64,000 nt of DNA from NCBI GenBank assembly GCA_025965155.1, contig JAOPXN010000025.1, forward strand, positions 1 through 64,000, read 5' to 3'. The notes under the pieces are model-generated. The model saw only the letters and a program-made list of their open reading frames with translations. It did no database searches and had not been told where the DNA came from. How positions within the stretch are numbered: position 1 is the stretch's first letter; every line of letters begins with the position of its first letter. Origin of the DNA: Propionibacteriaceae bacterium. GTDB lineage: Bacteria; Actinomycetota; Actinomycetes; Propionibacteriales; Propionibacteriaceae. Below are positions 20,282 to 42,903 of the stretch, one piece after another. Both the position numbers and the translations under genes were made by a program.

Positions 20282-20312
20282 TAAGCGCCCCCGTCCGTGT
20301 AGGTTGACCGCC

Positions 20313-23258: not shown

Positions 23259-24653
23259 ATGACAAAGACGTTCAGCGCATCCAGTACCGGAGTTCCGTTC
23301 ATTCGGGACAGGAACATCAGCCGGCGAGGGCTCCTCGGTGGCGCGGTTGGGGCAGCAGCAGCAGTGGGCCTTGCCGCTTGCGGCGCCGGTTCTGCCGGTG
23401 CCCCCGGACAGGCCGCATCGGTTCCAGGCAGCGGCGGCGCCGAGGAGTACACCGGGCCCAACGTCTCGCTCGCCTACTGGAACGGCCTCACCGGTGGTGA
23501 CGGTCCGATCATGAAAAAGATGATGGAGAAGTTCAACTCCGAGCACCCGAACATCAAGGTCAGCATGACCGCGATTGCCTGGGCGGACTACTACCAGAAG
23601 CTGCCGGCCGCCGTGAGCAACGGCAAGGGCCCCGACATCGGCATCATGCACGAGTACTCGCTGGCGACGAACGCGGCCCGGCAGGTGCTGCAGCCGCTCG
23701 ACGACGTCGCCACCGCCTTGAAGATGACAGCGGAGGACTTCCACCCGCTCGTCTGGGCAGCTGGGATCTATAAGGGTCCAAAGGACGACGCCCCGGTGCG
23801 CTACGGCATCCCCCTGGACGTGCACCCGGCTGGCCTGTACTACAACAAGACAGTGCTCGAGAAGCTCGGTGAGGACCCGGAGAAGGCTCCCACCACTGGC
23901 GACGAGCTGATGGCCATCCTGGATAAGGCCAAGTCGAAGGGCATGCAGGGCATGTGGACCTCGGCGTTGAGCGTCAACGGTCTGGAATGGCAGACCCTCG
24001 TCTACCAGTTCGGCGGCAAGATGGTCAACGACGACGGCCTCACCGTTGGCTGGGGTGGCGAGGAGGGTGTCAAGGCACTCACCTGGTGGAAGAACCTGAT
24101 CGACAACGGCCACAGCCCCAAGAACGCTGCGGCTGACGGCAACTACGTGTCGTTCAACAACGACAAGGCCGCCTTCATGATCAACGGCCCCTGGATGACC
24201 ACGCCGTTGAGCGACAACAAGAAGCTGAAGTGGGGCGCCGCACCGGTACCGCAGATCGGCGACTCGCTCCAGACCTGGTCGGGCGCGCACCACTTCGTGC
24301 TGCCGCGTCAGGTCCAGCCTGACCAGAACAAGGCAACTGCCAGCCGGGTCTTCGTCAACTGGATGTCGCAGCAGTCGCTCACCTGGGCGACGGCAGGCAT
24401 GGTTCCGGCCCGTAAGAGCGTCCGCGAGGATCCCGAGTTCGCCAAGCAGGGCGCCGTCACCCAGTTCGCCAAGGAGCTTGACTTCGTCAACTTCGTGCCT
24501 GCGGTTCCGGGTATCCAGGACATCGACCAGGTCCGCAACGCCGCAGTCCAAGAGGCCATGCTGGGCAAGAAGGACATTGCTACTGCTCTTGGAGAGGGTG
24601 CAGAGAAGGCCAACCAGATCCTGGCCGCCAACGCGAAGAAGTATGGGGGATGA
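23259..24653 (+). CDS. Sugar ABC transporter substrate-binding lipoprotein (CUT1, Tat-type signal), arabinoside cluster
   Basis: This encodes 464 residues from the ATG at 23259, chosen because AAAGGA stands 6 bases upstream; ATG 23244 is an alternative and the frame is open back to 23115. The N-terminus has a twin-arginine motif (SRRGLL, residues 21-26), a hydrophobic stretch and a lipobox (GLAAC, Cys41), so a folded, Tat-exported lipoprotein is predicted. The mature part is a family 1 solute-binding fold (LAYWNGLTGGDGPIMKKMMEKF; AAFMINGPWMTTPL). It probably binds arabino-oligosaccharides. The stop overlaps the permease start by 4 bp. Confidence 0.92.
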   Translation: MTKTFSASSTGVPFIRDRNISRRGLLGGAVGAAAAVGLAACGAGSAGAPGQAASVPGSGGAEEYTGPNVSLAYWNGLTGGDGPIMKKMMEKFNSEHPNIKVSMTAIAWADYYQKLPAAVSNGKGPDIGIMHEYSLATNAARQVLQPLDDVATALKMTAEDFHPLVWAAGIYKGPKDDAPVRYGIPLDVHPAGLYYNKTVLEKLGEDPEKAPTTGDELMAILDKAKSKGMQGMWTSALSVNGLEWQTLVYQFGGKMVNDDGLTVGWGGEEGVKALTWWKNLIDNGHSPKNAAADGNYVSFNNDKAAFMINGPWMTTPLSDNKKLKWGAAPVPQIGDSLQTWSGAHHFVLPRQVQPDQNKATASRVFVNWMSQQSLTWATAGMVPARKSVREDPEFAKQGAVTQFAKELDFVNFVPAVPGIQDIDQVRNAAVQEAMLGKKDIATALGEGAEKANQILAANAKKYGG

Positions 24654-25603
24654 GCACCACCACGGCGCCGGCGAAGACCTCGCCGGCGGTCCGGGGGGCC
24701 ACCTCGGGTAGGCACGGCAAGCTACGACTGCATCATACGGCGACGCCGTACCTGCTGTGTGCGCCGTACCTGCTGCTGCTGGCCACCTTCGTGCTGGGTC
24801 CGGCCCTGTTCGGAGTGTGGGTCAGCCTGCACGACTGGGACTTCATGCTGCCGCAGAAGCCGTTCATCGGGTTGGACAACTACAAGAACCTCCTCGACTC
24901 CAGCTCGGTGATCTACGAACCGTTCTGGAAGGGCATGCGAGCCACGGCCATCTTCGTGGTGGCCAGCGTTCCGTTCCTGATCTCGATCCCGTTGCTCATC
25001 GCGATCCTGCTCAACCGGCACTTCCCGGGTCGGACGTTCTTCCGGGCGATGATCTTCGCCCCGTTCGTGCTGGGCATCGCAGTGATCGGCGTGCTGTTCA
25101 ACTACCTGCTGGACGCACAGTTCGGTCTGATCAACTGGCTGCTCGGCTTCGTCGGCGTCGGCCCGATCGGATGGGCGCAGACCCAGCCCTGGGCGTGGAT
25201 CGCGCTGGTGGGCATGACGGTCTGGTGGACCCTCGGGTTCAACACCGTGATCTACCTGGCCGGTCTCGGAAACATCCCTGCCGAGCAGTACGAGGCGGCC
25301 GAGCTCGACGGTGCGGGCGCCTGGGGCAAGTTCCGGTTCATCACCATCCCAGGTCTGCGGACCGTGCTGGTGTTCGTGATCACGACCACCATCCTGGCGA
25401 GCGCGAACATGTTCGGACAGTCGTACCTGGTGACCAAGGGTGGACCTGGTGACAGCACCCGGACAGCGATCATGGTGATGACGGAGGAAGGTCTGAGACA
25501 GTTCAAGATGGGCACCGCATCGGCCATGAGCTACGTGTTGGCCCTGTTCCTGGCGGTCATCTCCATCATCAACTTCATCGTGATGCGGGAGAGGAAGTCA
25601 TGA
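24650..25603 (+). CDS. Sugar ABC transporter permease, MalF type (arabinoside importer)
   Basis: This encodes 317 residues and overlaps both neighbours by 4 bp (ATGA), indicating coupled translation. Six predicted helices start with YLLCAPYLLLLATFVLGPALFG and end with SYVLALFLAVISIINFIVM. The ATPase-contact EAA loop is present (QYEAAELDGAGAWGKFRFITIPGL, near residues 210-235). It pairs with the MalG-type protein encoded next. Confidence 0.93.
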   Translation: MSTTTAPAKTSPAVRGATSGRHGKLRLHHTATPYLLCAPYLLLLATFVLGPALFGVWVSLHDWDFMLPQKPFIGLDNYKNLLDSSSVIYEPFWKGMRATAIFVVASVPFLISIPLLIAILLNRHFPGRTFFRAMIFAPFVLGIAVIGVLFNYLLDAQFGLINWLLGFVGVGPIGWAQTQPWAWIALVGMTVWWTLGFNTVIYLAGLGNIPAEQYEAAELDGAGAWGKFRFITIPGLRTVLVFVITTTILASANMFGQSYLVTKGGPGDSTRTAIMVMTEEGLRQFKMGTASAMSYVLALFLAVISIINFIVMRERKS

Positions 25604-26493
25604 CTCAGACAACCAGCGAAGCCAGGCCGGCCACCGTCGAAGCCACGCCGGGTCGACGCAAACGAAGCAGCCGTCATCACAACGGACCGCTGTTCTGGAT
25701 CGGCATGGTCATCCTTGCCGCCATCTTCGTCATCCCGATTATCTGGATGTACCTGACGTCGTTCCGGTCGCTGTCGGACTCACGCAGAGTTCCACTGACG
25801 ATCATCCCTGATGAGATCACCCTTCGCGCCTTCAGGTTCATCTTCTCTGAGACCCAGAACCCGGTCCTGCTGTGGGCTCTCAACTCGCTGATCGCGGCGT
25901 CGGCGCATTCCATCTTGGTGTTGGTGGTGGCGTCGATGGCGGCCTACGCGCTGGCTCGGATGCAGTTCAAGGGGCGGGGAGTGATCTTCGCCGTGATCAT
26001 CGGCACCCTGTTCGTTCCGCACTTCATCTTCTTGATGCCGAACTACCTGCTGATGGACAAGCTCGGTTGGTTGGACACGCTGATCGCACTGATCGTGCCG
26101 GGAGCGGCAGGGGCTTTCGGGGTGTTCTTCCTGCGGCAGTTCTTCCTCGGGATCCCTCGGGAGCTCGAAGAGAGCGCGCTGATCGACGGAGCGAACACCT
26201 GGACCATCCTGACCAGGATCATCCTGCCGATCGCTCGGCCGGCGCTGATCACTTTGGGTGTGCTGTCCTTCCTCGGGAACTGGAACGACTTCCTGTGGCC
26301 CGTCTTCGTGCTGTTCTCTCCTGAACGGCTCACGTTGCCGGCCGGACTGTCCACCCTGCAGGGCGCGTTCGCTACCGACTACCCGGTGATCATGGCCGGC
26401 GCCACGATCGCCTCGGTGCCGGTGTTGATTCTCTACATCGCGCTGCAGCGCTACATCATCGAAGGTGTGGCAACTAGCGGCCTCAAAGGCTGA
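25600..26493 (+). CDS. Sugar ABC transporter permease, MalG type (arabinoside importer)
   Basis: This encodes 297 residues. A basic N-terminal tail (GRRKRSSRHH) precedes the first helix GMVILAAIFVIPIIWMYL. The EAA loop reads ELEESALIDGANTWTILTRIILPIARP near residues 185-210, with Ser for the second Ala, which is tolerated in the family. It ends with the MalG-like YIIEGVATSGLKG. No ATPase gene is adjacent. A strong terminator follows 12 bp after the stop. Confidence 0.93.
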   Translation: MTQTTSEARPATVEATPGRRKRSSRHHNGPLFWIGMVILAAIFVIPIIWMYLTSFRSLSDSRRVPLTIIPDEITLRAFRFIFSETQNPVLLWALNSLIAASAHSILVLVVASMAAYALARMQFKGRGVIFAVIIGTLFVPHFIFLMPNYLLMDKLGWLDTLIALIVPGAAGAFGVFFLRQFFLGIPRELEESALIDGANTWTILTRIILPIARPALITLGVLSFLGNWNDFLWPVFVLFSPERLTLPAGLSTLQGAFATDYPVIMAGATIASVPVLILYIALQRYIIEGVATSGLKG

Positions 26494-26504
26494 CAAATCC
26501 AGAG

Positions 26505-26548
26505 AAGGCCTCGACCCACCGGCGAGCCGGTGGGTCGGGGCCTTTTCT
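26505..26548 (+). terminator. Rho-independent terminator after the arabinoside importer
   Basis: GGCC-T-CGACCCACCGG, a 4-base loop, then CCGGTGGGTCG-G-GGCC form a near-perfect stem of about 16 bp followed by TTTTCTTC. It separates the importer operon from the second arabinofuranosidase gene, which starts 29 bp downstream and so either uses read-through or a promoter hidden in this short gap. Confidence 0.85.
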
Positions 26549-26576
26549 TCGCTCCTAACCGACAAGGAAGTCCTAC

Positions 26577-28112
26577 ATGGCACGTGCACGCATCACCCTT
26601 GACCGCGACTTCACTCTGGGCCCAGTGCCCCGTAGGCTCTTCGGATCCTTCGTCGAGCACATGGCCCGCTGCGTCTACACCGGCATCTTCGAACCAGGCC
26701 ATCCCGAAGCGGACGAGCAGGGACTGCGCCGCGACGTGCTGGAGCTCACCCGTGAGCTCGGTGTGACGGTCGTCCGCTACCCGGGCGGCAACTTCGTCTC
26801 AGGCTATGACTGGGAGGACGGGGTCGGACCGGTCGACCAGCGGCCCCGCCGACTCGACGGCGCCTGGCACACGCTGGAGACCAACGCCTTCGGCCTGCAC
26901 GAGTTCATCGACTGGGCGCGGCTCGCCGAGGTCGAGGTAATGGAGGCTGTCAACCTCGGTACTCGAGGCGTCCAGGCCGCTCGCCAGCTGCTCGAGTACG
27001 CCAACCACCCGGGCGGCACCAAGCTTTCGGACCTGCGCCGCGAGCATGGAGCGGAGGAGCCTTTCGACATCCGGCTGTGGTGCCTGGGCAACGAGATGGA
27101 CGGTCCCTGGCAGATCGGGTTCAAGACGGCCGAGGAGTATGGCCGGCTGGCCCAGGAGACGGCGCGGGCTATGCGCATGATCGACTCCAACCTTGAGCTG
27201 GTCGCGTGCGGCAGCTCGAGCCTGTCCATGCCGACCTTCGGTGCCTGGGAGCACACGGTGCTGACCCACACCTATGACCAGGTCGACTACATCTCGCTGC
27301 ACGCGTACTACTCCGATAACGACGGCGACGCCGAGAGCTTCCTGGCCAGCGCCGTGGATATGGACAGGTTCATCGAGGCGGTCGTCGCCACCGCGGACGC
27401 CGTACGCGCCCAGGGGCAGCATCAGAAGTTCATCAACCTCTCCTTCGACGAGTGGAACGTCTCCTACCGGCACAACGAAGCCGAGGGCCGGCCGACCGAC
27501 GCCGAACTGACCCGTGACTGGGCCGAGCATCCGCCCATCGGCGAGGGAGACTACGACGTCACCGAGGCTGTCGTGGTCGGGACGCTGCTGAACTCGCTGC
27601 TCCGCCACGGGGACCGGGTCAAGATCGCGAACCAGGCGCAGCTGGTGAACCTGCTCGGGCTGATCCGCACCGAGGAGGGCGGGCCGGCCTGGCGTCAGAC
27701 GATCTTCTTCCCCTTCGCCGCCATGGCCAACACCGCCGCCGGGCAGATCCTCCGCCCGTCGGTGACCTCCGACCGCTACTCGACCGCTAAGTACGGGGAT
27801 ACCGATGTGGTCGATGTCAGCGCCACCTGGGACGAGGACGAAGGGGTGCTCGCCTTGTTCGTGGCCAACCGAGGTCTGACCGAGGCTGCGTCGGTCGATG
27901 TGGTGTTGCGTGGCCTTGACGCCGACGAGATCATCTCGGCACAGGTGCTGACGATCCCCGACGGGGCTGACCGGTTCGCAGCGAACACGGCGACTGAGCA
28001 GCCGGTCGGGCTGGTCGACCTGGACGGCGTCGAGACCAAGGACGGCAACGTGCAGCTCGCGCTGCCGCCGCTGTGCTGGGCTGTGGTGAAGCTCGCGGTC
28101 AGCCAAAACTGA
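26577..28112 (+). CDS. abfA: GH51 alpha-L-arabinofuranosidase (2), cytoplasmic
   Basis: This encodes 511 residues, closely paralogous along its whole length to the enzyme encoded at 21521. The acid/base Glu173 (WCLGNEMDGPWQ) and nucleophile Glu292 (LSFDEWNVSY) fall at the same positions. It differs in the loop after the nucleophile, where an insertion (RHNEAEGRPTDAELTRDW) replaces a short stretch; this loop shapes the substrate pocket, so the two enzymes may prefer different arabinosides. No signal peptide is seen. AAGGAAG precedes the ATG. It is cut off from the importer genes by a terminator. Confidence 0.95.
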   Translation: MARARITLDRDFTLGPVPRRLFGSFVEHMARCVYTGIFEPGHPEADEQGLRRDVLELTRELGVTVVRYPGGNFVSGYDWEDGVGPVDQRPRRLDGAWHTLETNAFGLHEFIDWARLAEVEVMEAVNLGTRGVQAARQLLEYANHPGGTKLSDLRREHGAEEPFDIRLWCLGNEMDGPWQIGFKTAEEYGRLAQETARAMRMIDSNLELVACGSSSLSMPTFGAWEHTVLTHTYDQVDYISLHAYYSDNDGDAESFLASAVDMDRFIEAVVATADAVRAQGQHQKFINLSFDEWNVSYRHNEAEGRPTDAELTRDWAEHPPIGEGDYDVTEAVVVGTLLNSLLRHGDRVKIANQAQLVNLLGLIRTEEGGPAWRQTIFFPFAAMANTAAGQILRPSVTSDRYSTAKYGDTDVVDVSATWDEDEGVLALFVANRGLTEAASVDVVLRGLDADEIISAQVLTIPDGADRFAANTATEQPVGLVDLDGVETKDGNVQLALPPLCWAVVKLAVSQN

Positions 28113-32037: not shown

Positions 32038-33072
32038 ATGGCTGCCGTGACCGATGCCTCCGCCGCGGACCAGCCAACGACCTACCCCGGCGTGAGCGTG
32101 GTGATGCCGGTGCTGAACGAGGAGCGTCATCTGGGCGCCGCGGTACGGCGGGTGCTGGACCAGGACTACCCCGGTGAGCTCGAGGTGATCATGGCGGTCG
32201 GTCCGAGCCAGGACCGAACGGGCCAGATCGCGGCAGAGCTGGCCGCGGCCGACAGCCGGCTCCGGGTCGTGGACAACCCGGCCGGCCGTACCCCGCACGC
32301 ACTCAACCTCGCCATCGCCGCCGCTCAGTACGACGTGATCGTCCGGGTCGACGGCCACGGTGAGCTGACCGACGGCTACATCGCCAAGGCGGTGGAGCTG
32401 CTGCAGAGTACCGGGGCAGCCAACGTCGGGGGAGTGATGGACGCCCAGGGCGAGAGCCCCTTCGAGCAGGCTGTCGCGTCGGCGTACACCACCCGGCTGG
32501 GCCTCGGCGGCTCCACCTTTCACCTGGAGGACTCACCGGCAGGACCAGCCGACACCGTGTTCCTCGGCGTCTTCCGCAAGGACGCGCTGGCAGCGGTCGG
32601 AGGCTTCGACGAGTCCATGCACCGTGCCCAGGACTGGGAGCTGAACTATCGGCTGCGGCGCTCCGGTCAGACTGTCTGGTTCTCACCGGAGCTGAAGGTG
32701 ACCTACCGCCCGCGCTCCAGCCTGAAGGCGCTGGTTCGGCAGATGTACGAGACCGGCAAATGGCGTCGGGAGGTGGTCCGCCGGTATCCCGAGACCGCCG
32801 GCAGGCGTTACCTGGCGCCGCCGGTCGCGGTGTCTGGGATCGTGCTCGGGACGACCGCCGGTGCGCTCGGCACCATCACCGGCCCGAAGTGGCTGCGGGC
32901 CGGTCTCCTGGCTCCGCTGGGATACCTGGGCGTACTGGCTGTCGCTGTCGCGACCGCCCCGCCGACGCTCAATGCAGCCGCCCGGCGCCGGCTGCCGCTG
33001 GTGCTGGCGGCAATGCACCTCTCCTGGGGAGCCGGCTTTCTGGTCGGGTTGCGGGACCGCCGACCCGACTGA
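32038..33072 (+). CDS. Glycosyltransferase family 2 protein
   Basis: This encodes 344 residues. The GT2 nucleotide-sugar fold is clear: VSVVMPVLNEERHLGAAVRRVL at the start, the metal-binding VRVDGHGEL, and FDESMHRAQDWELNYRLRRSG near residues 190-210 (acceptor/base region). Two C-terminal membrane helices (VSGIVLGTTAGALGTITG; APLGYLGVLAVAVAT) would anchor it facing the cytoplasm. It likely adds a sugar to a lipid-linked cell-wall or exopolysaccharide precursor, in keeping with the LCP gene 45 bp upstream. The sugar donor is unknown. Confidence 0.9.
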   Translation: MAAVTDASAADQPTTYPGVSVVMPVLNEERHLGAAVRRVLDQDYPGELEVIMAVGPSQDRTGQIAAELAAADSRLRVVDNPAGRTPHALNLAIAAAQYDVIVRVDGHGELTDGYIAKAVELLQSTGAANVGGVMDAQGESPFEQAVASAYTTRLGLGGSTFHLEDSPAGPADTVFLGVFRKDALAAVGGFDESMHRAQDWELNYRLRRSGQTVWFSPELKVTYRPRSSLKALVRQMYETGKWRREVVRRYPETAGRRYLAPPVAVSGIVLGTTAGALGTITGPKWLRAGLLAPLGYLGVLAVAVATAPPTLNAAARRRLPLVLAAMHLSWGAGFLVGLRDRRPD

Positions 33073-33116
33073 TCGGCACCCTTGCCGCGCGGTGTGGCCA
33101 GCTTAGTGGCACATGT

Positions 33117-33157
33117 TTGACTTAATGTCATTACAAACTCTATCCTCGGTGTACACC
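33117..33157 (+). promoter_or_regulatory. Promoter of the tautomerase gene with an IolR-like box
   Basis: TTGACT (33117-33122) and TATCCT (33141-33146) are 18 bp apart. The spacer holds TGTCATTACAAA (33126-33137), which agrees at 9 of 10 positions with the KGWCHTRACA motif described for IolR of Corynebacterium glutamicum and recurs almost unchanged upstream of iolC. A small palindrome GGTGTACACC lies at 33148-33157. Confidence 0.55.
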
Positions 33158-33176
33158 ACACCACGAAGGGGGCGCG

Positions 33177-33566
33177 ATGCCACTCGTTCGGATAGACGTT
33201 CAGCAGGGCCGTACGACTGAGGAGCTGCGGCGGATCGCCGACACGGTCCAGGAGGTCATGCTCGAGGTATTCGACGCGCCACCGCGGGACCGGTACCAGA
33301 TCATCACCGAACATCCGGTCGGCCACATCATCGCCGAGGACACCGGGTTGGGGTTCGACCGCAGTCCCGGAGTGACGGTGATCCAGATCTTCCAGCAAGG
33401 TCGCAGTGAGGCGCAGAAGAAGGCGGCGTTTGCCGAGCTGGCCCTCCGGCTCGATAAGGACTGCGGCATCGCACCGACCGACTTGATCATCTCGGTGACG
33501 GCCAACCAGCGCGAGGACTGGTCGTTCGGACTCGGCCGGGCGCAGTTCCTGGAGGGTGACCTGTGA
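33177..33566 (+). CDS. Tautomerase-superfamily protein
   Basis: This encodes 129 residues, about twice the length of a 4-oxalocrotonate tautomerase subunit, as in the MSAD/cis-CaaD-like tautomerase branch. It starts Met-Pro (PLVRIDVQQGRT), so processing would expose the N-terminal Pro that is the catalytic base of the superfamily. Two beta-alpha-beta units are discernible (LVRIDV..TEELRRIADTVQEVMLEVF; VTVIQIFQQGRSEAQKKAAFAELALRL). AAGGGGG precedes the ATG. It lies 142 bp before iolC and shares a promoter box with it, so a role in inositol catabolism, such as keto-enol conversion of an intermediate, is possible but unproven. Confidence 0.85.
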   Translation: MPLVRIDVQQGRTTEELRRIADTVQEVMLEVFDAPPRDRYQIITEHPVGHIIAEDTGLGFDRSPGVTVIQIFQQGRSEAQKKAAFAELALRLDKDCGIAPTDLIISVTANQREDWSFGLGRAQFLEGDL

Positions 33567-33601
33567 CCGGCGAGCAGACCCAGCAGAACTTAATGCCGGT
33601 T

Positions 33602-33653
33602 TGTCTTTACAAATCATTGACTCCGGTACGCAGAGGGAATAGCGTTCCCTCTG
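33602..33653 (+). promoter_or_regulatory. iol operon promoter region: IolR-like box and perfect inverted repeat
   Basis: TGTCTTTACAAA (33602-33613) matches the box before the tautomerase gene in all but one base. It abuts TTGACT (33617-33622), a likely -35, with TAGCGT (33640-33645) a weak -10 at 17 bp. Over this -10 lies a perfect 9-bp inverted repeat, CAGAGGGAA (33631-33639) and TTCCCTCTG (33645-33653) around TAGCG, which looks like a second operator. The iolC start is 56 bp downstream. Confidence 0.55.
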
Positions 33654-33708
33654 TGGCCGACCCAGACCGACCGGCCGGCACCCACCCGAACTTTCTCAAG
33701 GGAGAGAT

Positions 33709-34722
33709 ATGAGCAGCGCGACTGCCCGAATCGACTCAAGCGCGCTGGAGGTTTTGACCTTCGGACGAAGCGGAGTGGACATCTATCCACACCAGATCGG
33801 GGTGGGTCTTGAAGACGTCCAGACCTTCGGCAAGTACCTAGGCGGCACCACCGCAAACGTAGCCGTAGCGGCGGCCCGGCTCGGCCGGCGCGCCGCCATC
33901 ATCACCGGAGTGGGCAACGACCCGTTCGGCCGCTTCGTCCGCAAGGCGCTGCGCGAGCTGGACGTTGACGACAGCCATGTCGTGGTCAACTTCGAGTACG
34001 CCACCCCGGTCACCTTCTGCGAGATCTTTCCGCCGGACGACTTCCCGCTCTGGTTCTACCGGCAGCCAACTGCGCCCGACCTGCAGGTACGGCCCAGCGA
34101 CATCGACTTCGACGCCGTCCGAGGCACCGACCTGATGTGGCTCTCGGTCACCGGGCTGAGCGAGGAGCCGAGCCGTGAGTCCCACTTTGCTGTCCTGGAA
34201 GCCAGGCAGCGCAGACCGCACACGGTGCTGGACCTCGACTACCGCCCGATGTTCTGGGACTCGGCTGCGCACGCGACCGAGCAGGTGCAAAAGGCCCTGC
34301 CGTACGTCACTGTTGCGGTCGGCAACCGCGAAGAGTGTGAGGTCGCTGTCGGAGAGACCGATCCGGAGCGGGCAGCGGATGCGCTGCTGGATGCCGGGGT
34401 TGAGCTCGCCGTGGTGAAGCAGGGACCCAAGGGCGTCCTGGCGAAGACCCGCACCGAGCGGGTCGAGTCGCCGCCGATCATGATCCAGCCGCTGAACGGC
34501 CTTGGCGCCGGCGACAGCTTTGGCGGGTCGCTCGCTCACGGGCTGCTGGCCGGCTGGCCGCTGGAGAAGATCCTGCAGAACGCCAACGCAGCGGGCGCCA
34601 TCGTCGCCTCGCGGCTGGAGTGCTCCACCGCCATGCCGACCGAAGCCGAGATCGACCTCTTGATCGCCGGCGGCGACCCCAATGCCGAGCTGGCATCCGC
34701 ATCAACAGCCGAGGTTCGATGA
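33709..34722 (+). CDS. iolC: 5-dehydro-2-deoxygluconokinase
   Basis: This encodes 337 residues of the PfkB ribokinase fold. It has the N-terminal LTFGRSGVDIYP segment, the GGTTANVAVAAARLGRRAA substrate region and the C-terminal GAGDSFGG catalytic motif (NGLGAGDSFGGSLAHGLL) with the anion hole and base Asp. It phosphorylates 2-deoxy-5-keto-D-gluconate late in myo-inositol breakdown. AAGGGAGAG precedes the ATG. It is the first gene of the eight-gene iol operon and overlaps the next gene by 4 bp. Confidence 0.94.
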   Translation: MSSATARIDSSALEVLTFGRSGVDIYPHQIGVGLEDVQTFGKYLGGTTANVAVAAARLGRRAAIITGVGNDPFGRFVRKALRELDVDDSHVVVNFEYATPVTFCEIFPPDDFPLWFYRQPTAPDLQVRPSDIDFDAVRGTDLMWLSVTGLSEEPSRESHFAVLEARQRRPHTVLDLDYRPMFWDSAAHATEQVQKALPYVTVAVGNREECEVAVGETDPERAADALLDAGVELAVVKQGPKGVLAKTRTERVESPPIMIQPLNGLGAGDSFGGSLAHGLLAGWPLEKILQNANAAGAIVASRLECSTAMPTEAEIDLLIAGGDPNAELASASTAEVR

Positions 34723-35627
34723 TCATGACGACAACCGTTGCCACCACTCCCTTCGTGTCCGAGATCGCCGAGATCAACGAAGTTCGGCTGCGCGAGCCGA
34801 GCCGGATCAAGAAGCTGCTGGGGTCCCGTAAGCGGCGTCCGCTGGTGGGTGAGGACGGCCGGCTGATGATCGTCGCCTGTGACCACCCTGCCCGCGGTGC
34901 GTTGGCCGCCACCGGGCGCCCGGACGCCATGGCGAGCCGCACCGAGCTGCTCGGTCGCCTGGTGACGGCACTGTCCCGTCCCGGGGTGGACGGTCTGCTG
35001 GCCACGGCCGACATCATCGAGGACCTGGTGCTGCTCGGCGCCCTCGAGGACAAGGTCGTGTTCTCCTCGATGAACCGCGGCGGGCTGCAGGGGTCGGTGT
35101 TCGAGATGGACGACCGGCTCACCGGGTACGACGTCCAGGGAACCCTCGACGCCGGCTGCGACGGAGCCAAGATGCTGACCCGGATCGACCTGGACGACCC
35201 AGGCACCGTGTCCACTCTGCAAGCCTGCGGCCAGGCGATCACCGAGCTCAACCGGGCCGAGCTGGTCGCGCTGGTCGAGCCGTTCATGTCCAGCCGCGTC
35301 AACGGCAAGGTGGTCAACGACCTGAGCGCCGATGCCGTGATCAAGTCCGTGCACATCGCGCAGGGCCTCGGCGCTTCCAGCGCCTACACCTGGATGAAGC
35401 TTCCGGTGGTGGAGGAGATGGAGCGGGTCATGGACGCCACCACCCTGCCCACCCTGCTGCTGGGCGGTGACCCGGACGCCGCGTCGCCCGACGCGACCTA
35501 CGCCGCCTGGCGAACCGCGTTGGAGCTTCCGTCGGTCCGCGGTCTTGTGGTCGGCCGGACCCTGCTCTACCCAGCCGACGACGACGTGGCGAACGCAGTC
35601 GACATCGCCGTCTCGATGGTGCGGTGA
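34719..35627 (+). CDS. Cgl0158-type aldolase (deoxy-ketogluconate-6-P aldolase candidate)
   Basis: This encodes 302 residues. The ATG at 34719 overlaps the iolC stop (ATGA); a second ATG is at 34725. The sequence is a beta/alpha barrel of the Cgl0158 / deoxyribose-phosphate aldolase-like family seen in actinobacterial iol clusters: RLMIVACDHPARGALAA, DGLLATADIIEDLV, GAKMLTRID and TLLLGGDP. It occupies the place of IolJ, which splits 5-keto-2-deoxygluconate-6-P into DHAP and malonate semialdehyde. A Lys suited to Schiff-base chemistry lies in GAKML or WMKLP. The role is inferred from position. Confidence 0.85.
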   Translation: MIMTTTVATTPFVSEIAEINEVRLREPSRIKKLLGSRKRRPLVGEDGRLMIVACDHPARGALAATGRPDAMASRTELLGRLVTALSRPGVDGLLATADIIEDLVLLGALEDKVVFSSMNRGGLQGSVFEMDDRLTGYDVQGTLDAGCDGAKMLTRIDLDDPGTVSTLQACGQAITELNRAELVALVEPFMSSRVNGKVVNDLSADAVIKSVHIAQGLGASSAYTWMKLPVVEEMERVMDATTLPTLLLGGDPDAASPDATYAAWRTALELPSVRGLVVGRTLLYPADDDVANAVDIAVSMVR

Positions 35628-35634
35628 GGCAGAC

Positions 35635-36519
35635 GTGACCGCGAGCCAGCTGTATCTGCCAGCCGGTCAGGCGACGACGGCGGAGTACGACACCCAGGTG
35701 ACGCCTGAGTCGGCCGGCTGGGGCTACTCCAGCCTGCGCGTCGTGACAGTGCCGGTTGCCGGAACCCATACCTTCTCCACCGGGTCCGACGAGGTGATCG
35801 TGGTGCCGCTGGAAGGATCGGCGACGATCGAGGTGGACGGGTCCTTCGTCGACCTTGATGGCCGAGTCGACGTCTTCGCCGGACCGACCGACTTCGCCTA
35901 CCTGCCGATCGACAGCGTGGTAACCATCAGCGCGGCCAACGGCGGTCGGTTCGCTCTGGCCGGCGCCCGGACAGATCGCAAGCTGCCGTTCCGCTACGGC
36001 CCGGTGGCAGACGTCCCGGTCGAGCTGCGGGGAGCCGGCTCATGCAGCCGTCAGGTCCGCAACTTCGCCACTCCGGAGGCTTTCCCGGCCGCCAAGATCA
36101 TCGCGTGCGAGGTGATCACTCCGGGTGGCAACTGGTCCTCCTATCCCGCGCACAAGCACGACGAGCAGTCCGAGTCCGAGGCCGAGCTCGAGGAGATCTA
36201 CTACTTCGAGATCAGTTCGGGGCCTAACGGTGAACCAGGCTTCGGTTACCACCGCACCTCGTCGTCGCCGAACAAGGAGATCGACATCCTCGAGGAGGTG
36301 CGTACCAGAGACACGGTGCTGGTCCCGCACGGCTGGCACGGCCCCTGTGTCGCCGCGCCCGGCTTCGACATGTACTACCTGAACGTGATGGCAGGCCCGG
36401 CGAAGGAACGTGCCTGGCTCATCTCCGACCATCCCGACCAGGGATGGGTCCGGGGCACCTGGGCCGACCAGGCCGTGGACCCTCGACTTACCCCGATCCC
36501 AGATCTGAAAGGCAGCTGA
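35635..36519 (+). CDS. iolB: 5-deoxy-glucuronate isomerase
   Basis: This encodes 294 residues from the GTG at 35635, which has GAGG 6 bases upstream; longer forms would overlap the aldolase gene. It is a bicupin: N-terminal cupin (HTFSTGSDEVIVVPLEGSATIEV) and C-terminal cupin with the metal-binding pattern SSYPAHKHDE..ELEEIYYFEI and the distal His in VLVPHGWHGPC. It isomerises 5-deoxy-D-glucuronate to 2-deoxy-5-keto-D-gluconate. It starts 8 bases after the aldolase stop and ends one base before iolD. Confidence 0.94.
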   Translation: MTASQLYLPAGQATTAEYDTQVTPESAGWGYSSLRVVTVPVAGTHTFSTGSDEVIVVPLEGSATIEVDGSFVDLDGRVDVFAGPTDFAYLPIDSVVTISAANGGRFALAGARTDRKLPFRYGPVADVPVELRGAGSCSRQVRNFATPEAFPAAKIIACEVITPGGNWSSYPAHKHDEQSESEAELEEIYYFEISSGPNGEPGFGYHRTSSSPNKEIDILEEVRTRDTVLVPHGWHGPCVAAPGFDMYYLNVMAGPAKERAWLISDHPDQGWVRGTWADQAVDPRLTPIPDLKGS

Positions 36520-36520
36520 G

Positions 36521-38434
36521 ATGGCAACCAGCAGCACCGTCCGACTGACCGTCGCGCAGGCAACTGTGCAGTTCCTCAGCGCCCAGTACTCCGAGTCTGA
36601 CGGCGTCGAGCAGAAGCTTTTCGCCGGCTGCTTCGGCATCTTCGGTCACGGCAACGTGGCGGGGCTCGGGCAGGCGCTCCTGCAGGCCGAGCTGACCGAC
36701 CCCGATGCGCTCCCGTATGTACTGGGCCGCAACGAGCAGGCCATGGTGCACAGCGCCGTGGCGTACGCGCGGATGAAGGACCGGCTGCAGACCTGGGCCG
36801 TGTCCAGCAGCGTCGGCCCGGGCGCCACCAACATGGTCACGGGTGCAGCCCTGGCCACGATCAACCGGCTGCCGGTGCTGCTGCTGCCGGCTGACACCTT
36901 CGCCAGCCGCAGCGCGTCCCCGTTGCTGCAGGAGCTGGAGGTGCCGCAGAGTGGCGACGTGACGGTCAACGACTGCTTCCGGCCGGTCTCGAAGTACTTC
37001 GACCGGATCTGGCGGCCGGAGCAGCTGCCCTCGGCGCTCCTGGCCGCGATGAGAGTTCTGACCGACCCGGTGGAGACCGGTGCTGTCACCATCTGTCTGC
37101 CGCAGGACGTGCAGGCCGAGGCGTACGACTGGCCCGAGGCGCTGTTCGCCAAGCGGGTCTGGCATGTGGCCCGGCCGCTGCCCGAGCCCGCTCGGATCGA
37201 GGCCGCCGTCCGCGCCATCCGGCAGGCTGAACGGCCACTGATCGTCGCTGGTGGCGGGGTCGGCTACTCCCGGGCGCACGAAGCGCTGGCCGGGTTCGTC
37301 GAAGCCACCGGCATCCCGGTCGGCCAGAGCCAGGCCGGCAAGGGCTCGCTGCTGTACGACCACCCGCAGTGCCTGGGCGCGATCGGCTCGACCGGGACCA
37401 CGGCCGCCAACGAGATCGCCCGGACCGCCGACCTGGTGATCGGCATCGGTACCCGCTACTCCGACTTCACCACCGCCAGCCGGACGGCCTTCGCGGCACC
37501 GGACGTGCAGTTCATCAACATCAACGTGGCCGGCCTGGACGCGGTCAAGCAGGCAGGCCTCGGCATCGTCGCGGACGCCCGCGAGTCGCTGCAGGCGCTG
37601 ACGGCAGCGTTGCAGGGCTACCGGGTGGACGACAGCTACGCGACCCAGGTCAGCGAGCTGAAGGCTGAGTGGGATGCGACCGTCGACGCGGTGTACCACC
37701 CGAAGGTGCCCAACGGCGGCGCGGGCGGGCTGCTGACCCAGAACGAGGTGATCGGGATGGTCAACGAGCTCTCCGACCCGCGTGATGTCGTCGTGTGTGC
37801 CGCCGGCTCGATGCCAGGCGACCTGCACAAGCTGTGGCGGACCCGCGACCCGCTCGGCTACCACGTCGAGTACGGCTATTCCTGCATGGGTTACGAAGTG
37901 GCCGGTGGGCTCGGGGTGGCGATGGCCTGCCCGGACCGCGACGTGTTCGTCATGGTGGGCGACGGCTCGTACCTGATGATGGCCACCGAGCTGGTGACCG
38001 CCGTGCAGGAGGGCACCAAGATCATCACCGTGCTGGTCCAGAACCATGGCTTCGCCTCCATCGGCTCGCTGTCGGAGTCACTGGGCTCGCAGCGGTTCGG
38101 GACGAAGTACCGCCGTCGCTCCGGCACCGGCCGCCTCGACGGTGACCTGCTGCCGGTGGATTTGGCTGCCAACGCGGCGAGCCTGGGCGTCGAGGTGATC
38201 AAGGTAGCCACCGCGGCCGAGTTCGCCGATGCGGTCAAGGTCGCGAAGGGCGCCGATGAAAGCATCGTGATCTACGTCGAGACCGACCCGTTGATCGGGG
38301 CGCCGGACTCAGAGTCCTGGTGGGACGTGCCGGTGAGTGAGGTGTCGACCCTGTCCTCGACCCAGCAGGCACGCGAGGTATACGACAAGTACAAGGCCAC
38401 CCAGAAGCTGTTCTTGAACCCGGTGCAGCCCTAG
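36521..38434 (+). CDS. iolD: 3D-(3,5/4)-trihydroxycyclohexane-1,2-dione acylhydrolase
   Basis: This encodes 637 residues, a thiamine-diphosphate enzyme of normal family length. The N-terminal domain carries the conserved Glu region (LPYVLGRNEQAMVHSAVAYAR) and the C-terminal domain the ThDP/Mg motif (VGDGSYLMMATELVTAVQEGTKI, with VLVQNHGFASIGSLS). It opens the six-membered ring of the inosose-derived dione to 5-deoxy-glucuronate. AAAGGCAG lies before the ATG. A 61-bp gap follows before iolE. Confidence 0.95.
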   Translation: MATSSTVRLTVAQATVQFLSAQYSESDGVEQKLFAGCFGIFGHGNVAGLGQALLQAELTDPDALPYVLGRNEQAMVHSAVAYARMKDRLQTWAVSSSVGPGATNMVTGAALATINRLPVLLLPADTFASRSASPLLQELEVPQSGDVTVNDCFRPVSKYFDRIWRPEQLPSALLAAMRVLTDPVETGAVTICLPQDVQAEAYDWPEALFAKRVWHVARPLPEPARIEAAVRAIRQAERPLIVAGGGVGYSRAHEALAGFVEATGIPVGQSQAGKGSLLYDHPQCLGAIGSTGTTAANEIARTADLVIGIGTRYSDFTTASRTAFAAPDVQFININVAGLDAVKQAGLGIVADARESLQALTAALQGYRVDDSYATQVSELKAEWDATVDAVYHPKVPNGGAGGLLTQNEVIGMVNELSDPRDVVVCAAGSMPGDLHKLWRTRDPLGYHVEYGYSCMGYEVAGGLGVAMACPDRDVFVMVGDGSYLMMATELVTAVQEGTKIITVLVQNHGFASIGSLSESLGSQRFGTKYRRRSGTGRLDGDLLPVDLAANAASLGVEVIKVATAAEFADAVKVAKGADESIVIYVETDPLIGAPDSESWWDVPVSEVSTLSSTQQAREVYDKYKATQKLFLNPVQP

Positions 38435-38495
38435 ATCGGGCCGGCTCGCCACTGGAACATTCAGCCAAACCACACCTACCCGCAGGAGAGTGCAC

Positions 38496-39407
38496 GTGTC
38501 ATCGACGATCACCATCGGTACTGCCCCGGACTCATGGGGCGTCTGGTTCCCCAGCGATCCCGAGCAGCTGCCGGCCACCCAGTTCCTCAGAGAGGTTCAG
38601 GAAGCTGGCTACGGTTGGATCGAGCTGGGTCCGTACGGCTACCTCTCCAAGGACCCTGCCGAGCTGCAGGACCAGCTCGACGCGCACGGTCTGAAGGTGC
38701 TGGCGGGGACGGTGTTCGAGCATCTGCACCGGCCGGACTCCTGGGACGAGGTCTGGTCTCAGGTGACCGACGTGGCTGCGCTGACCCAGGCCGTCGGCGG
38801 CAAGCACATCGTCGTGATCCCCGACCCGTGGCGTGACCACAAGTCCGGTGACCATCTGGAGAGTCGCGAGCTGCCGCCCGAGCAGTGGACGCAGATGACC
38901 AAGGGGCTGGACGAGCTCGGCCGGCGCATCCTCGATGAGTACGGCCTGCACGTGCAGTTCCACTCCCACGCGGACAGTCACGTCGGCTACCAGCCCGACA
39001 TCGAGCGGCTGCTGGCCGACACCAACCCTGACTGGGTCAACCTCTGCCTGGACACCGGCCACGTCGCCTACTACGGCGGTGACTGCCTGGAGCTGATCCA
39101 GAAGTACCCGGACCGGATCGGCTACCTGCATCTCAAGCAGGTCAACCCCAAGATCGTCTCCGAGGTTCTGGACAAGGACCTGTCGTTCCCGGAGGCGGTC
39201 CGGATGGGCGCCATGATCGAGCCGCCGCTAGGTGTCCCGGCGATGGAGCCGCTGCTGGACGCCGTAGCCGCCCTGAACCGTGACATCTACGGCATCATCG
39301 AGCACGACCTCTACCCGTGCGCGCCGGACCTGCCGCTGCCCATCGCGCGGCGGACGAAAACCTACCTGAGTTCCTGCAGTGGAGCCTCGATCGAGTTTGG
39401 GAGCTGA
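38496..39407 (+). CDS. iolE: Inosose (2-keto-myo-inositol) dehydratase
   Basis: This encodes 303 residues. The GTG at 38496 is chosen because AGGAG stands 7 bases before it; an in-frame GTG at 38490 is too close to that site. The xylose-isomerase-like barrel begins ITIGTAPDSWGVWFP, typical of IolE, and has metal-site segments LHVQFHSHADSHVG, LCLDTGHVAYYGGD, YLHLKQVNP and IIEHDLYP. It dehydrates 2-keto-myo-inositol to the dione used by IolD. It ends 3 bp before iolG. Confidence 0.94.
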   Translation: MSSTITIGTAPDSWGVWFPSDPEQLPATQFLREVQEAGYGWIELGPYGYLSKDPAELQDQLDAHGLKVLAGTVFEHLHRPDSWDEVWSQVTDVAALTQAVGGKHIVVIPDPWRDHKSGDHLESRELPPEQWTQMTKGLDELGRRILDEYGLHVQFHSHADSHVGYQPDIERLLADTNPDWVNLCLDTGHVAYYGGDCLELIQKYPDRIGYLHLKQVNPKIVSEVLDKDLSFPEAVRMGAMIEPPLGVPAMEPLLDAVAALNRDIYGIIEHDLYPCAPDLPLPIARRTKTYLSSCSGASIEFGS

Positions 39408-39410
39408 AGA

Positions 39411-40487
39411 ATGAGCGACTTGCGAATCGCCGTGCTGGGTGTCGGCATGATGGGCGCGTTCCATGTGGACGCGCTGACCAAGCGGATCCGGGGTGCAAAC
39501 GTGACTGTGGTCAGCGACTTCTTCGCGGAGAAGGCTGAGGAGGTGGCGGCCCAAGCCGGTGCCCGCGCGGTGGCCGACCCTATCGAAGCCATCAACGCCC
39601 CCGATGTGGATGCCGTGCTGATCGCCAGCCCGGGCGCCGCCCACGATGAGCAGGTCAACGCCTGTCTCGACCGCGGCATCCCGGTGCTGTGTGAGAAGCC
39701 GCTGACCACCGACATCGCCTCGTCGTACGCGATCATCCAGAAGGAGGCGGCGCTCGGCAAGCAGCTGATCCAGGTCGGGTTCATGCGTCGGTTCGACCCT
39801 GAGTACGTGGCGTTGAAGAAGTTGATCACCGACGGTGACTTGGGGAACCCGTTGCTGGTGCACTGCACCCACCGCAACCCGAATGTGCCGCCGCACTTCA
39901 ACTCCGAGTTCATGATCAGGGACTCGGTGGTGCACGAGGTGGATGTCGCCCGGTTCCTGCTGGACGAGGAGATCACCAGTGTGCAGGTGCTCAAGGGCGT
40001 CGCCACCAGCTCGGCACCGGCCGGCACCAGCGACCCGATGATCGTGGTCTTCGAGACCGAGTCCGGGCGACTGGTCACCGACGAGATCTACGTACGGACC
40101 GGCGTCGCCTACGAGGTGCGCACCGAAGTCGTGGGGGAGCAGGGCAGTGCGCTCATCGGCCTCGACCAGAACCTGCAGCTGAAGTCGACCAACGGACGAT
40201 GGGGCGGCCAGATCACGCCCGGCTTCGTCGAGCGGTTCGGGGCGGCGTACGACATCGAGCTGCAGCGCTGGGTCGATGCGGCCAAGCGGGGCACCATCGA
40301 CGGCCCCGGCGCCTGGGACGGCTACGCCGCTGTCGCGGTCTGTGAGGCCGGTGTCGAGGCGGTGCGTACCGGCCAGAAGGTTCCGGTGCACCTGGGTGCC
40401 CGGCCGGCGCAGGGCGGGGTCGCCGAAGAGCTGTCCGAGCCCGAGCCCGGGATCCAGGCTCCTGATCTTGAGGCGGCCCGGCCGTGA
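39411..40487 (+). CDS. iolG: myo-Inositol 2-dehydrogenase
   Basis: This encodes 358 residues of the GFO/IDH/MocA family. The Rossmann motif is AVLGVGMMGAFHVDAL near residues 7-22, the conserved CEKPLTTD segment follows near residue 98, and MRRFDPEYVALKKLI and HEVDVARFLL match inositol dehydrogenases. It oxidises myo-inositol to 2-keto-myo-inositol with NAD, the first step of the pathway. The C-terminal stretch of about 20 residues is acidic and variable. The stop overlaps the start of the next gene (GTGA). Confidence 0.93.
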   Translation: MSDLRIAVLGVGMMGAFHVDALTKRIRGANVTVVSDFFAEKAEEVAAQAGARAVADPIEAINAPDVDAVLIASPGAAHDEQVNACLDRGIPVLCEKPLTTDIASSYAIIQKEAALGKQLIQVGFMRRFDPEYVALKKLITDGDLGNPLLVHCTHRNPNVPPHFNSEFMIRDSVVHEVDVARFLLDEEITSVQVLKGVATSSAPAGTSDPMIVVFETESGRLVTDEIYVRTGVAYEVRTEVVGEQGSALIGLDQNLQLKSTNGRWGGQITPGFVERFGAAYDIELQRWVDAAKRGTIDGPGAWDGYAAVAVCEAGVEAVRTGQKVPVHLGARPAQGGVAEELSEPEPGIQAPDLEAARP

Positions 40488-41392
40488 AGCTAGCACTCGA
40501 TCCGCAGATGTTCTACTCCACCCAGTCGTTTCTGGAGCTGCCCGACACCGTCGCTGCACTGGGCTACGACTGGATGGAGCTGTCACCCAAGGCCGACTTC
40601 ATCCCGTTCTTCTCCTATCCCAAGGTCGATGACGCGGGAGTGCGGGCCCTGAAGAAGCGGGCCGCGGACGCCGGGGTTGGGATTGCCTCGGTGCTGCCGG
40701 TACAGCGCTGGTCCGGTCCTGACTCCGACCAGCGCCGGGCGGCGGTCCGGTCCTGGAAGCGGATCATCCAGATCACCGTCGACCTCGGCGTGGACGTGAT
40801 CAACAGCGAGTTCAACGGTCGTCCGGAAGCTCCGGAGACAGCAGAGGCGCACTTCATGCAGTCGTTGGAGGAGCTGCTGCCGATCTTGGAGGCCGAGGGC
40901 ATCAAGCTGGTGCTGGAGCCCCATCCGGACGACTTCATCGAGGACGGGCATGCAGCCGTCAACGCCATCCGTGGGCTTAACAAGGACTGGATCTCGTTCC
41001 TCTACTGCACACCGCACACCTTCCACCAAGGCAACGACGCGACTGGAATCATCACCGCAGCGGCCGACAAGGTCAGCTATGTGCACCTGGCCGACACCTT
41101 GGATCACACTGCGTGCAACGGTCTGCGCTACATCGTCAACCCGCCGGGGTCCACAGTCCGGGTGCATCAGCACGCGGAGATGGGTCGGGGCGAGGTGAAC
41201 TTCGACGAGGTCTTCGCTGCGCTCGCGGCGGTCGGGTTCGACGGTGTGATCAGCAGCTGTGTCTTCGGTTGGGAGGAGCAGGCGCGAGAGGTCAGCGTCC
41301 GCCAACGCGACAAGGCACTTGCCTTGGTCGGTAAGCACTTTGGGCACGATGCCCAGGCGTCACTCAGCAGCAGCAAGATCACCTCGAACTAG
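40484..41392 (+). CDS. iolH: Sugar phosphate isomerase/epimerase family protein (IolH-like)
   Basis: This encodes 302 residues from a GTG overlapping the iolG stop. It is an AP-endonuclease-2-like TIM barrel: LALDPQMFYSTQSFLELPDTVAALGYDWMELSP at the start (quoted in part), VLEPHPDDFIEDGHAAVNAI, YVHLADTLDHT and VHQHAEMGRGEVNFDEVF give the metal and substrate segments. It has the position and sequence character of IolH. The exact reaction of IolH is not settled; epimerisation or isomerisation of a pathway intermediate is likely. It may equally be an inosose isomerase for other inositol isomers. Confidence 0.82.
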   Translation: MKLALDPQMFYSTQSFLELPDTVAALGYDWMELSPKADFIPFFSYPKVDDAGVRALKKRAADAGVGIASVLPVQRWSGPDSDQRRAAVRSWKRIIQITVDLGVDVINSEFNGRPEAPETAEAHFMQSLEELLPILEAEGIKLVLEPHPDDFIEDGHAAVNAIRGLNKDWISFLYCTPHTFHQGNDATGIITAAADKVSYVHLADTLDHTACNGLRYIVNPPGSTVRVHQHAEMGRGEVNFDEVFAALAAVGFDGVISSCVFGWEEQAREVSVRQRDKALALVGKHFGHDAQASLSSSKITSN

Positions 41393-41409: not shown

Positions 41410-42903
41410 ATGGCCACAACGCTGTACCACTGGAAGAACGGCGCCAGTTTTGAGGGAACGTCCGGTAACTTCTCCGACGTCACCGACCCCGCGACCGGTG
41501 AGGTCAGCGCCCAGCTGGCGCTTGCCTCCGCCGACGATGTCGACGCTGTCGTCCAGGCTGCGGTGGCAGCCTTTCCGAAGTGGCGGGACACGTCGCTGAC
41601 CAAACGGACCCAGGTGCTCTTCGCCTTCCGTGAGCTGCTGAACGCCCGCAAGGGTGAGCTGGCCGCGATCATCACTGCTGAACACGGCAAGGTTCTCTCC
41701 GATGCTCTGGGCGAGGTCAGCCGGGGCCAGGAGGTGGTGGAGTTCGCCTGCGGCATGCCGCACCTGCTCAAGGGTGCCTTCACCGAGAACGCCTCTACTG
41801 GTGTGGATGTGCACTCGGTCCGCCAACCGCTAGGTCCGGTGGCGATCATCTCGCCGTTCAACTTCCCTGCCATGGTGCCGATGTGGTTCTACCCGATCGC
41901 GATCGCCACCGGGAACACAGTGGTGCTCAAGCCCAGCGAGAAGGTGCCGACCGCGGCGCTGTGGATGGCTCAGCTGTGGAAGGAGGCCGGTCTGCCCGAC
42001 GGCGTCTTCAACGTGCTCAACGGCGACAAGGTGGCCGTCGACGGACTGCTCACCCATCCCGACATCAAGTCGGTCTCCTTCGTCGGGTCGACCCCGATCG
42101 CCCGCTACGTGTACGAGACCGGCACGACCCACGGCAAGCGGGTCCAGGCCCTGGGTGGCGCCAAGAACCACATGCTGGTGCTGCCGGACGCCGATCTTGA
42201 TCTTGCCGCCGACCAGGCGATCAACGCCGGTTTCGGTTCAGCCGGTGAGCGCTGCATGGCGATCTCGGCGGTCCTCGCCGTTGGCGACATCGCCGACGAG
42301 CTGGTCTCCAAGATCAAGGAGCGGGCCGAGACCCTGCGGACCGGCGACGGTCGGCGGGGATGCGACATGGGTCCGCTGGTCACCGCGGTGGCCCGGGACC
42401 GGGTCTCCGGCTACGTGGATGCTGGCGAGGCAGCCGGCGCGACCCTGGTCGTCGACGGCCGCGGCGTCAAGCCCGACGCCGATGGGCAGGGCTTCTTCGT
42501 CGGGCCAACCCTGTTCGACAACGTGACGACGGACATGTCGATCTACACCGACGAGATCTTCGGTCCGGTGCTGTCGGTGGTCCGGGTAGATACCTACGAG
42601 GAGGGAGTCGAGTTGATCAACTCCAACCCGTACGGCAACGGGACCGCGATCTTCACCAATGACGGCGGCGCCGCTCGGCGGTTCTCCAACGAGGTGCAGG
42701 TCGGCATGATCGGCGTCAACGTGCCGGTGCCGGTGCCGATGGCGTATTACTCCTTCGGTGGTTGGAAGAACTCGCTGTTCGGCGACACCCACGCCCACGG
42801 TGTGGAGGGCGTGCACTTCTTCACCCGCGGCAAGGTGGTGACGTCGCGGTGGCTGGACCCGAGCCACGGCGGGCTGAACCTGGGGTTCCCGCAGAACACC
42901 TGA
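41410..42903 (+). CDS. iolA: Methylmalonate/malonate-semialdehyde dehydrogenase (CoA-acylating)
   Basis: This encodes 497 residues (mmsA/iolA family). ALDH features are HSVRQPLGPVAIISPFNFP, the VGSTPIARYVYE nucleotide loop, NHMLVLPDADLD, and the catalytic Cys in GSAGERCMAIS near residue 286. The Ala/Gly-Glu-Arg-Cys-Met context is typical of the CoA-acylating subgroup, which lacks the usual general-base Glu. It converts malonate semialdehyde to acetyl-CoA, the last step of inositol breakdown. It is the final gene of the operon; a strong terminator follows. Confidence 0.94.
   Translation: MATTLYHWKNGASFEGTSGNFSDVTDPATGEVSAQLALASADDVDAVVQAAVAAFPKWRDTSLTKRTQVLFAFRELLNARKGELAAIITAEHGKVLSDALGEVSRGQEVVEFACGMPHLLKGAFTENASTGVDVHSVRQPLGPVAIISPFNFPAMVPMWFYPIAIATGNTVVLKPSEKVPTAALWMAQLWKEAGLPDGVFNVLNGDKVAVDGLLTHPDIKSVSFVGSTPIARYVYETGTTHGKRVQALGGAKNHMLVLPDADLDLAADQAINAGFGSAGERCMAISAVLAVGDIADELVSKIKERAETLRTGDGRRGCDMGPLVTAVARDRVSGYVDAGEAAGATLVVDGRGVKPDADGQGFFVGPTLFDNVTTDMSIYTDEIFGPVLSVVRVDTYEEGVELINSNPYGNGTAIFTNDGGAARRFSNEVQVGMIGVNVPVPVPMAYYSFGGWKNSLFGDTHAHGVEGVHFFTRGKVVTSRWLDPSHGGLNLGFPQNT

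Follow-up and report, generated by a model that had tools for sequence, protein, structure and literature searches.

A tautomerase-superfamily gene heading an actinobacterial inositol operon is predicted to encode a malonate semialdehyde decarboxylase under IolR-type control

What might a protein of the tautomerase superfamily do at the head of an operon for inositol catabolism? The question is raised by a stretch of 64,000 nucleotides (the window) from an actinobacterium whose close relatives are Propionibacteriaceae, in a genus that includes Microlunatus flavus. Here, a gene coding for a 129-residue protein with the Pfam domain Tautomerase_2 (33177-33566) heads an iol operon running to 42903, with all genes on the forward strand. 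It is followed, in order, by iolC for 5-dehydro-2-deoxygluconokinase (33709-34722; TIGR04382, above cut-off), a Cgl0159-like gene in the position of the aldolase IolJ (34725-35627; PF22649), iolB (35626-36519; TIGR04378, above cut-off), and iolD (36521-38434; TIGR04377, above cut-off), with the start codons of the Cgl0159-like gene and iolB being uncertain. Then come an iolE-like gene (38490-39407; TIGR04379 at 138 bits, under the cut-off of 290), a gene for an IolG-like inositol dehydrogenase (39411-40487; under its cut-offs, 217 vs 355), a gene for a xylose-isomerase-like TIM-barrel protein of the IolI/IolH type, recognized by profile matches (40484-41392), and mmsA (iolA), coding for a CoA-acylating (methyl)malonate-semialdehyde dehydrogenase (41410-42903; TIGR01722, above cut-off). 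The iolE-like and iolG-like products (38490-40487) fall well under the NCBIfam cut-offs, and other inositol isomers may be involved.

A preliminary description of this locus had proposed that the tautomerase gene and iolC share a promoter box resembling that of IolR. The boxes do stand where it had placed them, namely TGTCATTACAAA at 33126-33137 and TGTCTTTACAAA at 33602-33613, in or beside TTGACT -35 elements at 33117-33122 and 33617-33622, and both match KGWCHTRACA, the motif quoted there and attributed to Corynebacterium glutamicum IolR, at nine of ten positions, with a T at the position of the R. As evidence, this motif with up to one mismatch is worthless: the window contains 24 matches, fewer than the mean of 41 for shuffled sequences. 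In full, the box is palindromic, TTTGTC-NN-GACAAA, and it is this longer form that defines two predicted operators. The first, AATGTCATTACAAA (33124-33137, forward strand), lies between the -35 and -10 elements of the promoter of the tautomerase gene (33117-33146), in which TTGACT is followed after 18 bases by the -10-like TATCCT (33141-33146). A scan of 33050-33730 reported this promoter as its only sigma-70-like site, with shuffled sequences giving a mean of 0.1. The second, TTTGTCTTTACAAA (33600-33613, forward strand), ends 3 bases short of the TTGACT of the likely iolC promoter (33617-33645), which has a weak -10 element, TAGCGT, 17 bases further on, and which went unreported in the same scan. 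The positions of both boxes would suit a repressor.

The exact form TGTCNTNACAAA has two occurrences in the genome (4.49 Mb), neither of them outside this locus, while the reversed pattern has one. For an assessment of the full palindrome, we used an independent weight matrix trained solely on ten other genomes of the genus that have iolD and lack an ortholog of the tautomerase gene. Across the 64 kb window this matrix ranked 33600-33613 first (23.4 bits) and 33124-33137 second (17.1 bits), and none of 20 windows of 64 kb generated from a Markov model contained a site at 17.1 bits, the highest being 14.9. The third site in the window, at 62357 (9.9 bits), was set aside as a chance match, as it lies inside a frame of 1096 codons.

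A box common to the tautomerase and iol genes in other genomes had been named as a check on the original proposal, and it is indeed found. In all eight genus loci with an ortholog, the palindrome precedes both the tautomerase gene and iolC, with a single weak site among the 16 (that before the tautomerase gene of locus L004). The ten genus genomes with iolD and without the ortholog were in turn scored with a matrix built from the eight ortholog-bearing loci, which avoids circular scoring. In the iolC regions of these ten, each covering about 6.1 kb, the top-scoring site lay before iolC in every case, with scores of 19.9-25.4 bits; six of them have a distant tautomerase match (E 2e-4 to 4e-10), and a second iolD place present in two of them was left out. 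Given this conservation before iolC in the relatives and the top ranking of the two boxes in the window, the box is, as far as sequence comparison can tell, most likely an iol operator, of which the tautomerase gene would have its own copy.

The preliminary description had further suggested that the tautomerase is part of inositol catabolism and had named co-occurrence beyond this genome as a means of checking this. Both points gain support from gene neighborhoods. Among 197 sampled genomes of the family, 28 have a tautomerase match, 12 of them above 110 bits, and iolD is found in all of these 12 as against 94 of the 197 overall. In eight of the 12, comprising the source genome and seven others with at least 62% identity, the gene stands directly 5' of iolC (in one, the contig end cuts iolC); in the remaining four, with 47-51% identity, no iolC directly follows the gene within 1.5 kb. 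One carrier of the gene is M. flavus CGMCC 4.6856 (L061, which is identical in position to L007). A wider set was assembled from the best 80 of 486 relatives obtained in one scan of species genomes with two peptide patterns, with neighborhoods covering up to 10 kb on each side, less on short contigs, and with iolB, iolC, iolD, iolE and iolJ taken as core genes. At least one core gene lies near the tautomerase gene in 26 of these best 80 loci, and at least three in 19; genus loci account for five of the 26, and in seven, L097 among them, the linkage depends on no more than two core genes. The linked loci recur across families and in various gene orders, with examples in Geodermatophilus, Blastococcus, Modestobacter, Kocuria, Nocardioides, Pengzhenrongella, Hoyosella, Brachybacterium, Gulosibacter and one Bacillus. 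At L097 (Nocardioides immobilis, 10001-10344), the tautomerase frame is broken, and this copy may be a pseudogene or reflect a sequencing error.

On a tree of 81 rows built from few columns, the label of iol linkage requires eight changes, with at least seven forced by well-supported branches; shuffled labels gave 11.3 changes on average, and as few as eight in 12 of 500 trials. Linkage also extends to plasmids. A search of plasmids returned 226 and 258 matching records, and of eight regions inspected two contain iol genes: one from Pseudarthrobacter, in which the tautomerase gene is followed by iolC, and one from Clavibacter, with iol genes, the tautomerase gene and a GntR gene. In both, the product is annotated merely as "tautomerase family protein". 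Four of the other regions have no iol gene among their annotated genes, and the remaining two records are unannotated.

Counting boxes with the independent matrix at a threshold of 12 and within 350 bases upstream (background 1.0%), we found one before the tautomerase gene in four of the five genus loci, in 13 of the 21 other iol-linked loci, and in six of the 54 loci without observed iol linkage, these six being two Geodermatophilaceae, two Gordonia, Acidipropionibacterium and, doubtfully, Sporolactobacillus. The other eight iol-linked loci outside the genus have no box directly before the tautomerase gene; in Brachybacterium, the box occurs at iolC and at one other place and is absent before the tautomerase gene.

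Which protein might bind the box? The genome has 17 GntR matches, one of which, on contig 2 (L046), resembles the GntR genes found in 16 of the 80 loci, with identities of 43-67%; 15 of these 16 loci are iol-linked, and the GntR gene frequently adjoins iolC or the tautomerase gene. A palindromic operator common to promoters of iol genes is thus accompanied in this genome by an ortholog of the GntR regulators that adjoin iol genes in other genomes, and on these two features we provisionally assign the locus to an IolR (GntR) regulon. We infer that L046 is likely to be IolR, an identification that goes by the GntR genes beside iol genes. Among 19 tested genomes (L082 was left out), an ortholog of L046 (above 170 bits) is present in all five with a boxed tautomerase gene; of the 14 lacking the box, seven have the ortholog and seven do not. 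Autoregulation of this GntR gene through the box was considered and rejected, with no box occurring in the 12 kb around the gene, which is on another contig.

That very absence, along with one further box in the genome that is flanked by a LacI gene and a gene for a sugar-binding protein, would be in keeping with the box belonging to a different regulator (a LacI protein, for example, or a regulator of sugar genes in general), in which case a common site would be no sign of inositol control. We regard this as improbable in light of the recurrence of a GntR gene beside iol genes in a search directed at GntR genes, the top-ranking site before iolC in all ten relatives, and the inner part of some relatives' boxes, for instance TGTCATGACA, which fits the quoted IolR motif exactly.

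As for the encoded protein, its best sequence matches in the PDB are the malonate semialdehyde decarboxylases (MSADs) 2aag, 2aaj and 3mjz (E 3e-32 to 1e-31), with the next match at 9e-5. An AlphaFold model (pLDDT 94.3) has as its best fold matches 2aag, 2aaj, 3mjz and 3mlc, all of them MSADs, with TM scores of 0.90-0.91 and 41-46% identity, while 7tvk, also titled as an MSAD, comes at rank 21. The 4-oxalocrotonate tautomerase family fits poorly by comparison: the best of its NCBIfam models scored 30.9 bits, far below the cut-off of 103. In an alignment of 80 rows, comprising the window protein and 79 loci (L097 excluded), Pro-1, Asp-37, Arg-75 and Phe-116 are present in every row and Trp-114 in 79, with the invariance of Asp-37 being partly built in, as this residue is part of one of the two patterns used to fetch the sequences. 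We take Pro-1, Asp-37 and the arginine at 75/76 to be the catalytic residues of the MSADs. At position 73, the window protein has Gln, as do 52 of the 80 rows, and 14 rows have Arg.

Comparison with two known enzymes, 2aag, which we take to be the MSAD of Pseudomonas pavonaceae 170, and 3mjz from the coryneform strain FG41, reveals the same length and fold, together with Pro-1, Asp-37, Arg-75/76, Trp-114 and Phe-116. The window protein, with Gln-73 and Arg-75, has a mix of the two known MSAD site layouts. It lacks the Arg-73 of the Pseudomonas enzyme, as does the FG41 MSAD, and because the latter is presumably an active decarboxylase, we do not consider Arg-73 to be defining for the group. With its nearest characterized relatives by both sequence and fold being MSADs, and with Pro-1, Asp-37 and the arginine at 75/76 in place, the protein groups with the MSADs and is most likely a malonate semialdehyde decarboxylase, its activity being a prediction from sequence and the structural model.

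The neighborhoods of its relatives point in the same direction. In six loci with no iol core gene nearby, from Rhodococcus, Nocardia, Mycolicibacterium and Gordonia (L086, L087, L091, L096, L101 and L105), mmsA lies just 5' of the MSAD gene on the same strand, across a gap of 10 to 134 bases, with two of the contigs extending less than 600 bases upstream. MmsA acts on malonate semialdehyde, and because its gene adjoins that for the MSAD-type protein in these six loci, malonate semialdehyde is suggested as the substrate independently of inositol. The preliminary description had offered inosose, a dione and malonate semialdehyde as substrates of a keto-enol conversion. The last of these finds support and the first two do not, and, judging from sequence, fold, catalytic residues and the adjacency of mmsA, decarboxylation is the most likely reaction in place of keto-enol conversion. 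A true tautomerase acting on inosose, trihydroxycyclohexane dione or 2-deoxy-5-keto-gluconate would ease keto-enol conversion in between the steps of IolE, IolD and IolB, and both the superfamily of the protein and its having the same type of operator as the operon for these steps agree with such a role. Yet, the nearest characterized relatives are decarboxylases, the full set of MSAD residues is present, the mmsA neighborhoods devoid of iol genes would be left unexplained, and we know of no keto-enol tautomerase step needed by the textbook inositol pathway; hence, we hold this alternative to be very unlikely.

A different concern is where the substrate comes from. In 54 of the best 80 of the 486 relatives, no iol core gene was seen in up to 10 kb on each side, some of the contigs being short, and it follows that the MSAD family has other uses besides inositol. 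At L091 and L096, a gene for an FAD-dependent oxidoreductase lies upstream, accompanied at L091 by a GABA-permease-like gene, and the mmsA-MSAD loci possibly belong to a pathway in which a beta-alanine-like amine is degraded through malonate semialdehyde. A plasmid of Nicoliella spurrieriana (Lactobacillaceae; L135, 3752-7393) has adjacent genes for a GABA-transaminase-like protein, an APC permease and an MSAD-type protein, which may represent another source of malonate semialdehyde. The MSAD of the window could, by extension from these loci and from the predominance of unlinked ones, act on malonate semialdehyde from elsewhere, such as beta-alanine-like amines or halogenated acrylates, and stand before the iol operon by accident. 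An accident of this kind appears quite improbable when set against an operator that precedes the two genes in each of the eight ortholog-bearing genomes of the genus (one of 16 sites being weak), a box before the gene in several families, and the repeated linkage to iol genes in differing orders.

On the strength of the gene order, the conserved boxes, the protein family and its residues, we think it likely that the gene encodes an MSAD-type decarboxylase of the inositol regulon, which would be repressed by a GntR protein and provide a second exit for malonate semialdehyde. Breakdown of inositol by the iol enzymes yields dihydroxyacetone phosphate and malonate semialdehyde. In the mechanism we posit, the GntR repressor, likely an ortholog of the GntR regulators beside iol genes in other Actinobacteria, would bind TTTGTC-NN-GACAAA before the MSAD gene and iolC, blocking both promoters until an inducer derived from inositol is present. 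MmsA would then convert malonate semialdehyde to acetyl-CoA using NAD and CoA, whereas the MSAD would split it into acetaldehyde and CO2 without a cofactor, by way of Pro-1, Asp-37 and Arg-75. The latter route might be a relief valve for times when NAD or CoA runs low, or a second outlet for a reactive aldehyde that operates in parallel. The two enzymes, found here in the same operon, would act on the same substrate with unrelated folds.

The MSAD is an accessory component: among 20 genomes of the genus, eight have the ortholog and 18 have iolD, and the gene is thus dispensable. The mmsA of the operon could by itself suffice for disposing of malonate semialdehyde. That the MSAD is a general replacement of mmsA is ruled out by the presence of mmsA in 14 of 16 tested genomes with an MSAD-type gene, whether iol-linked or not; in Gulosibacter, mmsA is found in the genome and not within the 20.4 kb around its iol genes. 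Going beyond this locus, we favor, with somewhat less assurance, the view that an IolR-controlled MSAD is a recurrent second exit of actinobacterial inositol catabolism, free of CoA and NAD, and that this is a main natural role of the actinobacterial MSAD clade, whose database label is simply "tautomerase family protein".

The chemistry of the MSADs and the iol pathway are both already known. The preliminary description had considered the link between them to be undescribed, which is doubtful for bacteria at large: in Lactobacillus casei, a member of Bacillota, the iolK gene of the iol operon is reportedly annotated as a putative malonate semialdehyde decarboxylase. If that annotation is right, it would be an MSAD-type gene in an iol operon. 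For the actinobacterial link, we found no description in a literature search that covered few subscription papers. With respect to regulation, C. glutamicum IolR offers the closest parallel, with a GntR-type repressor and a similar box as quoted in the preliminary description; we know of no tautomerase gene in its regulon.

Passages of one paper place iolK in the iol operon of L. casei BL23 (PMC2530867), and reference titles in two others present C. glutamicum IolR as a GntR-type repressor of inositol genes (PMC3899939, PMC8634428). A literature search combining MSAD or tautomerase with inositol, iolD or iolK, in which subscription journals were mostly uncovered, gave no description of the link among the papers listed, and in the two papers with both tautomerase and iolD the passages were unrelated. 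The word "inositol" is absent from the main text of a survey of the superfamily (PMC5818174) and of a paper on a mycobacterial MSAD (PMC10606566); a term search of the main text of a large survey of iol clusters (PMC9430895) found no "tautomerase", "decarboxyl" or "iolK", and the GapMind paper (PMC9007349) has no malonate semialdehyde terms. In Bacillus subtilis, passages of a study of enzyme-overproducing cells describe yodA as "similar to malonate semialdehyde decarboxylase", name no regulator for it, and report it as down alongside iol genes, with no yodA-iol link being drawn in those passages (PMC11656851).

As to what this large subgroup of tautomerases does in nature, the pathway named in passages of the literature is the breakdown of the soil fumigant 1,3-dichloropropene, and not that of inositol (PMC10606566). 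The conserved operator and gene order would tie an MSAD clade to inositol breakdown. If this is true, the label "tautomerase family protein" would give way to a defined step in many actinobacterial genomes, and malonate semialdehyde could leave the inositol pathway by a second route that needs no cofactor.

Elsewhere in the genome, TTTGTCNNNACAAA with one mismatch proved weak as a means of finding further members of the regulon, giving eight strand matches at five places against five for a backward control. Four of these places are outside the window. Two of the latter, at L156:8873 and L157:4356 (contigs 10 and 23; 19.3 and 22.2 bits), precede genes for ABC binding proteins of the sugar type, which match a rhizopine binding protein best among the NCBIfam models, below its cut-off. 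Rhizopine is an inositol derivative, and these proteins may constitute a part of the regulon concerned with the uptake of inositol or inosamine. The genes downstream of the other two boxes (12.1 and 19.9 bits) include nothing inositol-like. Within the window, a profile-checked LacI-family gene at 20304 lies near an apparent sugar ABC transporter region (21521-28112), in which two similar proteins of about 510 residues, presumably of the GH51 arabinofuranosidase type, are encoded on both sides of the transporter.
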